DNA from: Alphaproteobacteria bacterium
GTDB lineage: Bacteria > Pseudomonadota > Alphaproteobacteria > GCA-2731375
Assembly (NCBI GenBank): GCA_016776605.1
Contig: JADHTB010000001.1
Location: forward strand, 248,001-312,000
DNA length: 64,000 bases
Direction of reading: 5' to 3'
Below, piece by piece: positions 36,915-53,431 of the stretch. The position numbers and the translations under genes were made by a program. Each line of letters starts with the position of its first letter. Position 1 is the stretch's first letter. Below the pieces are notes generated by a model. That model was not told the DNA's origin. It made no database searches and was given only the letters and a program-made list of their open reading frames with translations.

Positions 36915-38084
36915 ATGCAAAACGGACAGGTGGTTTTTACCGGCATGGACCGGGTGATCTTTGGCCAGGCGGCAGCCGGCGCGGTGGCCGGGGAAGCGGA
37001 ACGCCTGGGCGCCGAGCGGGTGTTCTTGCTGGTCAGCGGCACCTTGAACCGGGAGACCGACGCAGTCGAGACAATGGCGGCGGCCCTGGGCCCGCGTTAC
37101 GCCGGGCGCTGGGATCATATGCCGTCGCACTCGCCACGCGAGGCGGTGGTGGACTGCGCCAATGCCGCGCGCGATGCGGGCTGCGATCTGTTGGTCAATT
37201 TTGGCGGCGGCTCGACCACCGATGGCGGCAAGGCCGTGACGATCTGCCTGGAACACAACATCACGGACGCTGATGGACTGGAGCCGTTCCGCACCAGGGT
37301 CGATGAAGACGGCAAACGCGTTCGTCCCGAATACGCCGCGCCCCAGGTCCGCCAGATCGCCGTCCCAACCACCCTGTCGGGGGGCGAATTCAACGCCCGC
37401 GCCGGGATCACCAACACCAAGGAAAAACTGAAACAAAGCTTCATGCATCCCGGCATCATCCCTATTTCGGTGATCCTGGATCCAGCCATCACCGTCCACA
37501 CGCCGGAATGGCTGTGGTTGTCCACCGGTATCCGGGCCGTGGATCATGCGGTAGAGACTTATTGTTCCCTGGACGCCAACGATTATACGGACGGTGCCGC
37601 CCTGCAGGCCCTGCGCCTGTTGAGCGAGGGCCTGCCACGGGTCAAGGCCGATCCCGGCGACCTGGAGGCACGCCTGCAATGCCTGATGGGCGCCTGGATA
37701 TCCATGACCGGCATTGTCACGGGCACCCGCCTGGGTGCCTCGCATGCGATCGGTCATATCCTGGGCGGCACGGCCAATGTGCCCCACGGCTACACCTCCT
37801 GCGTCATGCTGCCATACGTCCTGAATTATAATGCCGCGATCAATTCCAACCGTCAGGCCGCCATTGCCCAGGCCGTGGGCCACCCGGATCAGAGTGCGGC
37901 AGACGCCCTGGACAAATTGATCTCGGGCCTTGGCATGCCCCGTAGCCTGCGCGAAGTTGACATCACGGAAGACCAGCTGCCGCTGCTGGCGAAAAATTGC
38001 ATGCTGGATGACTGGACCTTTTCAAATCCCCGGGAAATACGCTCACCGGACCAGATCATGGAAATTCTACGCGCCGCATTTTAG
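36915..38084 (+). CDS. Iron-containing alcohol dehydrogenase (maleylacetate reductase-like)
   Basis: A 389-residue group III (iron-type) dehydrogenase. The NAD(P) motif LVNFGGGSTTDGGKAV and metal ligands in VDHAVETYCS, ASHAIGHILGG and VPHGYTSCVMLPYVLNYN are visible. The GGGST pattern and length resemble maleylacetate reductases of aromatic catabolism, but other alcohol or hydroxy-acid dehydrogenases cannot be excluded. The start MQNGQVVF at 36915 is chosen because AAGGGG is about nine bases before it; a second ATG nine bases upstream overlaps that site. It follows the M81 peptidase gene and ends before a clear terminator. Confidence 0.9.
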   Translation: MQNGQVVFTGMDRVIFGQAAAGAVAGEAERLGAERVFLLVSGTLNRETDAVETMAAALGPRYAGRWDHMPSHSPREAVVDCANAARDAGCDLLVNFGGGSTTDGGKAVTICLEHNITDADGLEPFRTRVDEDGKRVRPEYAAPQVRQIAVPTTLSGGEFNARAGITNTKEKLKQSFMHPGIIPISVILDPAITVHTPEWLWLSTGIRAVDHAVETYCSLDANDYTDGAALQALRLLSEGLPRVKADPGDLEARLQCLMGAWISMTGIVTGTRLGASHAIGHILGGTANVPHGYTSCVMLPYVLNYNAAINSNRQAAIAQAVGHPDQSAADALDKLISGLGMPRSLREVDITEDQLPLLAKNCMLDDWTFSNPREIRSPDQIMEILRAAF

Positions 38085-38114: not shown

Positions 38115-38356
38115 ATCAGGCAAAATCGAATCGATTCGGAATCGGGACTCGACTTAGTCTCTCCCTGACCCTGGAAGACGCAAAGCGGGGCGCGCAGGGG
38201 GAAGCTGTATTTTCCATAACCGCCGACATAAGCCGATGATTTGGCAAATCAATTCGACTCCGCCAACAGCCTCTTGTGGATAGCCTGTGCAGTGACTGTG
38301 CATAATTTTCGCAGTTATCCACCGTTTATTGATAGCTATTTTTGTTTTTACCTTGT

Positions 38357-38386
38357 TTGCAAACGCATCATGATCCACCATTTAAT
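38357..38386 (+). promoter_or_regulatory. Candidate promoter of the structured RNA
   Basis: TTGCAA (38357-38362) and TTTAAT (38381-38386) are separated by 18 bases in an A/T-rich stretch that contrasts with the surrounding GC-rich DNA. Transcription would start near 38393, shortly before the first hairpin at 38411. Confidence 0.4.
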
Positions 38387-38392
38387 CAGCGG

Positions 38393-39050
38393 TCACGAAA
38401 GACGAATTTCCGGCCCTCAAAAGCAGGAAGTTTGAAAGCCGGGGCCGCCGCGGGGTGCCGAAACCCTTTGGTTTTAATCAGCTTAGGCTGGTCGAGGCCG
38501 CTGGATACCGCTTTAGGCAACTAAGGTGGATGGCATTTCGGGACCAGTATCCCTCGGCGCGGCCTTCGGGCTGCATCGTTCGGTGAAGGGTCGAATGGCC
38601 GAGGTATCTTCGGATGCCCAGGCCGGTCGGAAGGGGTGGCACGTCTTCGGGCGGGTCGGCCGGACCGGCAAGCCGGTTAAAGCGCCAAAGCGGGTCCGAC
38701 TCGTGGATGTGTTTTGATTGGTGGGCTGGGAAATCGTTGCGATTGGCCTTCGGGCCGGTGGCGGCTGATGGAAAGGTCCAAGCGGTATGGCGTTCGTGGC
38801 GCTTCTCCCTCCGGGGTGAGGCACCTGGATCACCCAACCGTTGGAGTAGCAGGCCTTTGAGCACGGGTCTTTGGGCCGTCGTCTTCGGACGGCGGTTCGG
38901 AAAAACCGGTTTTTGGGTGTCTGGACTCCGAGAACCAGAAGGCTTCGGCCTCAGAGATTTCGGTCTCGCTGGTTCCGAGGCGTCAGGAGTGTCCTTCGGG
39001 GCACGTTGCCAGGACCCCGCGTCCAATGCACCTGACGCCTCTCTTTTTGT
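38393..39050 (+). ncRNA. Candidate large structured non-coding RNA (about 650 nt)
   Basis: No frame here is protein-like, but the plus strand folds almost throughout. Stems in order: CGGCCCT/GGGGCCG (38411/38441); AAACC/GGTTT (38461); GGATAC/GTATCC (38503/38547) enclosing a hairpin with a GCAA loop; CTCGGC/GCCGAG (38553/38598); UUCG hairpins at 38559, 38603 and 38642; GGGTCGG/CCGACTC (38653/38696) around ACCGG-CAAG-CCGGT; UUCG at 38742; GGGTGA/TCACCC (38814/38830) after a UCCG loop; an 8-bp UUCG hairpin at 38876; a three-way junction GAACCAG/CTGGTTC (38932/38969) with two UUCG hairpins; and GAGGCGTCAGG/CCTGACGCCTC (38977/39031) around one more UUCG hairpin. Most of these contain G-U pairs that would be A-C mismatches on the other strand, which fixes the strand. 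I do not recognise RNase P RNA, tmRNA, 6S RNA or an intron. Confidence 0.75.
38977..39050 (+). terminator. Terminal stem and U-tract of the structured RNA
   Basis: An 11-bp perfect stem (38977-38987 with 39031-39041) is followed by TCTTTTTGT. The stem encloses a UUCG hairpin and a GGAC/GTCC hairpin, so it is more elaborate than a simple terminator but should still stop RNA polymerase. Confidence 0.65.
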
Positions 39051-39101
39051 CCGCGAACTGGTTGTCTGCAAACTGGTTGTCTGTCCGCCCGTCGGCCCTG
39101 C

Positions 39102-39731
39102 CTAAAAAATAGGGTTGCGGGTATCGACTAAGATCCGTCCGCCGATGCCGACGAAAACGACACCCGCGGCCCGTTCGATCCAATGCCTTGCCCGTGTAAA
39201 GCGCCGCCGGACCGGCGTTGATGACATAAACACGCTGACAATGGCGTACCAGATCAAGGCGGCGGCAAAGACCAGCCCAATCATCAGCAGCATGAGCCAG
39301 ATGGGCGTTGCCGCCGTCACCGAGGTCGCGAACACCGAAGTGAACAACACAATGGCCTTGGGGTTGGTCAGGGTGACAAAAAACCCGAAGCGAAAGGAAC
39401 CGCGTGTGCCCATACCGTCTCGGCCGGCAATTTCCGGCGCTTCGGATTTCGAAAAGATAAGGCGCAGCCCCAGGTAAATCAGGTACGAGGCGCCCAGCAG
39501 GCGCACTGCCCAGGCCAGCCATTGATACCGCACCAGTACCGCCGACAGGCCCAGCAGGCTCAACGCGGCATAGAGCCCCAGGCAGATGGAAACGCCCAGG
39601 GTGGTCCACAGGCCGGCCCTGATGCCCCTGGTCATCGATGATCGGACGACCGCGACGAAGTCCGGCCCCGGCAGGATAAGTGCTGGAATAAAAATGCCGA
39701 ACACGCTGATTAAAATGAAATGCGCTTCCAT
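39102..39731 (-). CDS. LysE/RhtB family exporter
   Basis: A 209-residue inner-membrane protein with about six hydrophobic segments and the family N-terminus FGIFIPALILPGPDFVAVVR (PGP motif) plus GASYLIYLGLRL. LysE/RhtB proteins export amino acids or related small metabolites. It is the last gene of the long minus-strand run and begins one base after the stop of the metallo-beta-lactamase-fold gene, so it may export a product or toxic intermediate of that pathway. It ends about 50 bases from the 3' end of the convergent structured RNA, with a short tandem repeat in between. Confidence 0.9.
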   Translation of the reverse strand: MEAHFILISVFGIFIPALILPGPDFVAVVRSSMTRGIRAGLWTTLGVSICLGLYAALSLLGLSAVLVRYQWLAWAVRLLGASYLIYLGLRLIFSKSEAPEIAGRDGMGTRGSFRFGFFVTLTNPKAIVLFTSVFATSVTAATPIWLMLLMIGLVFAAALIWYAIVSVFMSSTPVRRRFTRARHWIERAAGVVFVGIGGRILVDTRNPIF

Positions 39732-53335: not shown

Positions 53336-53431
53336 GGAAGGGGAACGTATTCCGGTGTTGCGCGCGGGCTTCAAACCCGTTGAGGGGCGTTAGACGTGCC
53401 TGGTGGGTTCGACTCCCACCCTCTTCCGCCA
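53336..53431 (+). tRNA. selC: Selenocysteine tRNA (TCA)
   Basis: A 96-base tRNA with the hallmarks of tRNA-Sec: an 8-bp acceptor stem (GGAAGGGG with CCTCTTCC), anticodon TCA at 53371-53373 in the loop CTTCAAA, a long variable arm (TTGAGGGGCG...CGTGCCTGG), T-loop TTCGACT, discriminator G and encoded CCA. It carries selenocysteine to UGA codons together with SelA, SelB and SelD, none of which is in the window. I found no gene here with an in-frame UGA that would need it. Confidence 0.97.

Follow-up and report, generated by a model that had tools for sequence, protein, structure and literature searches.

A family of structured noncoding RNA genes in Alphaproteobacteria with an upstream DnaA-box array and putative control by the replication initiator

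Introduction

The window analyzed here, a stretch of 64,000 nucleotides from an alphaproteobacterial genome, contains a region rich in potential RNA stems, and the question it raises is what kind of gene lies there, how widely that gene is distributed, and what controls it. The initial annotation, made from the letters of the sequence, read the region as a large structured RNA of the plus strand with its own promoter and terminator, and as the best candidate there for an undescribed system. The DnaA boxes found upstream of this RNA bring in DnaA, the protein that starts chromosome replication, and with it the alphaproteobacterial cell-cycle circuit, which has so far been described mainly via DnaA, GcrA, CcrM, and CtrA.

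Results

A structured RNA of the plus strand

The region is intergenic, as had been claimed in finding no real gene there; it is flanked by an iron-alcohol-dehydrogenase ORF, which ends at 38084, and by a minus-strand ORF of the LysE type (39102-39731). The plus strand of 38385-39052 folds with an energy of -323.7 kcal/mol and a z-score of -4.5 relative to 20 dinucleotide shuffles, none of which folded as well (0/20), whereas the minus strand reached a z-score of only -1.4 in the same test. Ten YYCG-capped hairpins of at least 3 bp were counted on the plus strand, eight of which include G-U pairs; mononucleotide shuffles averaged 0.9 such hairpins, and the minus strand had one. Both the abundance of UUCG-type hairpins and the use of their G-U pairs as a sign of plus-strand transcription were thus borne out. 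The 11-bp closing stem, the three-way junction and the U-tract described by the initial annotation are all present: stem P1 pairs 38977-38987 with 39031-39041, P2 carries a UUCG loop, P3 has a GGAC/GUCC arm, and the U-tract follows. Junction and U-tract together probably form an intrinsic terminator, at which transcription would end. The features of the locus are collected in Table 1.

Table 1. Features of the RNA gene and its upstream region (positions in the window)
Feature	Position	Strand	Basis
DnaA-box array	38275-38323		sequence; conserved in 11/11 genus members and in other families with the same spacings
Candidate -35 hexamer TTGTTT	38353-38358	+	upstream alignment; TTG retained across the class, ~30 nt 3' of the forward box
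RNA, ~660 nt	38388-39048	+	fold z-score, conservation, covariation; both ends inferred
Conserved 5' domain, ~290 nt	38384-38674	+	within the genus, compensatory changes in 27 of 70 consensus pairs
Variable hairpin-rich middle	38675-38966	+	hundreds of nt longer in most relatives
3' three-way junction and U-tract	38977-39048	+	95% identity in several genus members; models R1/R2; covariation

Among 61 genomes searched, the 11 that belong to the genus all carry the RNA, and a single further match came from another family. Within the genus, its ends are conserved, with about 95% identity over the last 86 nt in several members, and its middle differs by hundreds of nucleotides; the copy in the window is the shortest complete one among the relatives compared. 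In the 11-sequence genus alignment, the consensus pairs of the 5' domain that changed on both sides (27 of 70) outnumber those in shuffles (12.6), and 95% of the cells are paired vs at most 51% in slid controls. As the structure was derived from the same alignment, the percentage paired leans towards that structure, and more weight goes to the both-sided changes. The synteny upstream of the RNA is kept in the genus and lost in another family, indicating that the RNA gene stands alone; neighboring genes differ between families, the iron-alcohol-dehydrogenase gene of the window being replaced in genome G309 by an sdhC-like gene, as read from its sequence.

The same alignment bears on whether the region could encode a protein instead. 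Overlapping ORFs are not conserved in it, being interrupted by gaps of 1, 2, 9, and 13 nt, and the gaps in the 5' domain are mostly not multiples of three, so that a protein-coding reading was rejected on these non-triplet gaps. An antisense ORF of 197 amino acids (38478-39071, minus strand) overlaps the RNA, and its frame is common to some relatives; since gaps break it in others, this ORF is probably a by-product of the conserved RNA.

A class-wide family

When alphaproteobacterial genomes were searched with a covariance model of the 3' junction (R1), 35 of 385, belonging to 24 genera, gave a match. A second junction model (R2), built from 35 matches with three antisense matches to the palindromic stem left out, matched 43 of the 389 genomes sampled, in 29 of 254 genera; the genome samples of R1 and R2 overlap, the E-values of both models are rough, and the weakest two or three R2 matches may be due to chance. 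In a sample of 249 genomes from the phylum, all matches fell in the Alphaproteobacteria apart from a single weak one (27.9 bits), with no DnaA box upstream. A scan of contigs returned mostly chance matches, and we counted only the 14 loci confirmed by R1 at E < 1e-8, the named carriers among these contigs including Rhodospirillaceae, Silicimonas, and Boseongicola MAGs.

The junction is nearly invariant over 80 nt, including the U-tract. In 34 distinct sequences, compensatory changes on both sides affect 15 of 23 pairs, and 60 cells hold such changes vs 12.3 in shuffles, which ignore shared ancestry, and at most 10 in slid controls, which correct for it; 98.4% of the cells pair, in an alignment fitted to the structure. 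Homologues thus covary in the junction as well as in the 5' domain. Overall, the RNA is a member of a noncoding RNA gene family that is spread across many families of Alphaproteobacteria. In some genomes (G492, G399, G317, G197, G323, and G021), the RNA gene is present in duplicate or triplicate. No match was found in the phages, plasmids, and viral contigs searched, where the plasmid matches of one search look like chance, and a phage or plasmid origin was rejected on this basis.

Fixed ends and a variable body

Across the family, the shortest RNAs have a total length of about 170 nt and the longest exceed 1,200 nt. Its body, taken from the forward DnaA box to the junction, spans about 120 to over 900 nt in cases with clear boundaries, a range that leaves out two loci (L078 and L086) with longer values on which we did not rely. 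In the shortest clear homologue (L072, ~170 nt), two hairpins precede the 3' junction, one at the 5' end and another that bears an internal loop of the GGAA/GGAA type. Between families, the RNA middle cannot be aligned, and a k-mer search there for a core conserved across families found only UUCG- and GCAA-capped stems enriched, so that a common function has to rest on the two ends and the array. The RNA can be viewed as a case of fixed ends with a body that grows and shrinks by hairpin modules.

The GGAA/GGAA hairpin is such a module, with a copy number between 1 and about 10 in several families: ten in L074, six or seven in G021, and one or two in several members of the genus. In the bodies of L074, L073, and G021, the copies (6 to 10) stand nearly in tandem; each hairpin is 30 nt long, and GGAA faces GGAA in its 4x4 internal loop of purines. 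The module is absent (0 copies) from 67 kb of flanking sequence, and none occurs in the window's own short copy. Taken alone, it folds no better than shuffles, and its role as a binding unit can therefore only be inferred; that it binds a protein seems doubtful.

Hairpin arrays of this kind, similar in sequence and variable in number, resemble those of CsrB and RsmZ, and several families carry many hairpins bearing GGA in loops, as a sponge for CsrA would. The GGA of the present module lies in an internal loop, however, not in a hairpin loop, and csrA (PF02599) was found in none of the six genus genomes tested (0/6) and in 4 of 24 carriers overall. We rejected a CsrA sponge for the genus of the window, in which the six genomes tested have no csrA, and consider its probability for the RNA next to nil.

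Comparison with known RNAs

Rfam 15 gave no match on the region, either at the gathering score or at E ≤ 10, and none at the gathering score in 20 homologous loci; the covariance models include those of RNase P, tmRNA, 6S, OLE, ROOL, GOLLD, HEARO, and group I and II introns. This agrees with the initial annotation, which had recognized no RNase P, tmRNA, 6S, or intron core. Besides, sequence-string and keyword searches of the literature found no report of the RNA. The family is previously undescribed. Of the three tests run (Rfam, covariation, and conserved protein frames), none went against a structured plus-strand RNA, and this reading is supported. The view of a candidate for an undescribed system held, but the class-wide family, the fixed 3' junction, the variable middle, and the DnaA array had been missed.

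A comparison with OLE, GOLLD, and ROOL had also been drawn, which holds for size but not for family identity. They, too, are bacterial RNAs of large size and dense structure whose function is at best partly known, and ROOL and GOLLD form cages (PMC12286853). The RNA could accordingly be a large ornate RNA of their kind, acting as an RNA-only multimer or a membrane RNP, with an incidental DnaA array, and its similar size and hairpin density would fit. The known members, however, have a large conserved core, whereas here the ends are conserved and homologues shrink to the short form of L072; there is no Rfam match to any of them, and unlike ROOL and GOLLD, the RNA was not found in the phages and viral contigs searched. 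We regard this explanation as improbable.

An upstream array of DnaA boxes

The promoter claimed by the initial annotation is weak in a sigma-70 consensus scan, yet a conserved upstream control region does exist at about 38275-38358, 5' of the start that had been assigned. In the window, reverse DnaA boxes follow each other with an 11-bp period, TGTGGATAG (38275), TGTG (38286), and TGTGCATAA (38297), and a forward box with one mismatch, TTATCCACC (38315), lies 40 bp after the first of them. The period equals a 9-bp box plus 2 bp, which is a spacing preferred by E. coli DnaA, as in vivo this protein binds mostly box pairs 2 or 3 bp apart (PMC11317965). Every genus member has a conserved upstream block with TGTGGATA or TGTGGAAA, plus TTATCCAC. 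Other families show the same array layout, followed by a GAAATTT-like stretch and, about 30 nt on, by TTG; in a few Rhodobacteraceae-like families, the array is down to one or two imperfect boxes. No -10 element was confidently identified in the candidate promoter, and the transcription start is placed tentatively near 38388. In many loci, a conserved AGAAATTT follows TTATCCACA just 3' of the forward box, outside the DnaA consensus, and is possibly the site of a second protein or an UP-like element.

The association of array and RNA was examined in 39 loci, thinned for near-duplicates, by scanning 1,450 nt upstream of the junction and an equal length downstream. With up to one mismatch allowed, a DnaA box was found upstream in 37 of the 39 vs downstream in 7, and the spacings between reverse and forward boxes peak at 40 (16 cases), 29 (8), and 52 (7), the downstream control giving one pair. 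The strict pair pattern, searched for exactly, occurs four times in 12 whole genomes, each time at one of these RNA genes (4/4). Second and third copies of the RNA gene in one genome carry their own array where this was checked. In the loci examined, the array lies 5' of the RNA and is co-oriented with it.

Discussion

DnaA boxes next to an AT-rich stretch gave the first idea that the locus might be, or be part of, oriC, and its RNA an origin-linked transcript. CcnA, a cell-cycle noncoding RNA of Caulobacter crescentus with a length of 182 nt, does lie in oriC, with CtrA as its presumed driver (PMC8959179). GC skew nevertheless stays negative over the 517-kb contig of the window, where it fluctuates slightly in places but does not shift at the gene, and is positive along 308 kb around the gene in G309; a 204-kb contig of G005, whose skew minimum lies about 30 kb away, was uninformative. 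Moreover, dnaA is on another contig, the neighboring genes differ between families, and some genomes carry the RNA gene twice or three times. An origin was rejected on GC skew and the position of dnaA, and an origin-linked transcript is very unlikely. As an alphaproteobacterial noncoding RNA near DnaA boxes and tied to the cell cycle, CcnA remains the nearest known RNA in setting, but the present family lies away from the origin by GC skew, has its DnaA array upstream of the promoter, and ends in a three-way junction.

In the main rival explanation, the function resides in the array itself, as a locus that titrates or recharges DnaA like datA or DARS of E. coli, with transcription only serving or reporting it. 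In E. coli, DnaA is regulated by non-coding DnaA-box clusters that lie outside oriC (PMC4585315), among them the chromosomal elements datA, DARS1, and DARS2; the present array is such a cluster away from oriC, and it keeps its spacing where the RNA middle does not. On the other hand, datA and DARS are DNA elements without a conserved RNA, whereas this array fronts one that shows RNA-level covariation in its ends and 5' domain. The position and orientation of the array relative to the RNA in the loci examined, and the -35-like TTG at a near-fixed distance from it, also point away from a free-standing DNA element. The covariation speaks against the RNA as a by-product and leaves room for a double role; as the sole explanation, a datA/DARS-like array appears unlikely.

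We favor the reading of a DnaA-controlled noncoding RNA family that is timed by the cell cycle and acts in trans, either as a structured scaffold or by binding protein, and assign to it a probability of roughly 0.62. The gene would consist of three parts: phased DnaA boxes about 30 bp 5' of the -35-like TTG, a variable body, and the conserved 3' junction. Cooperative binding of DnaA along a single face of the helix would control transcription, and the output of RNA would thereby be keyed to the replication cycle. Judged from the sequence, it is quite probable that DnaA binds the array and controls the transcription of the RNA. That the transcript then works in trans, in one of the two roles just named, we consider reasonably likely, and recurring hairpins such as the GGAA/GGAA internal-loop module would be candidates for its binding units. 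On balance, we lean towards a class-wide RNA family under direct DnaA control, linking replication initiation to a trans-acting structured RNA and distinct from oriC, from datA/DARS, and from the families in Rfam.

If this is true, the family would be the first class of RNA coupled to the replication initiator, as far as the present searches show, and it would add an RNA layer to the cell-cycle circuit of DnaA, GcrA, CcrM, and CtrA. With its array, 3' junction, and approximate boundaries defined, the family lends itself readily to testing.

Apart from the RNA gene, the window carries a selenocysteine tRNA (53336-53427, plus strand; Rfam RF01852), and the genome probably makes selenoproteins.
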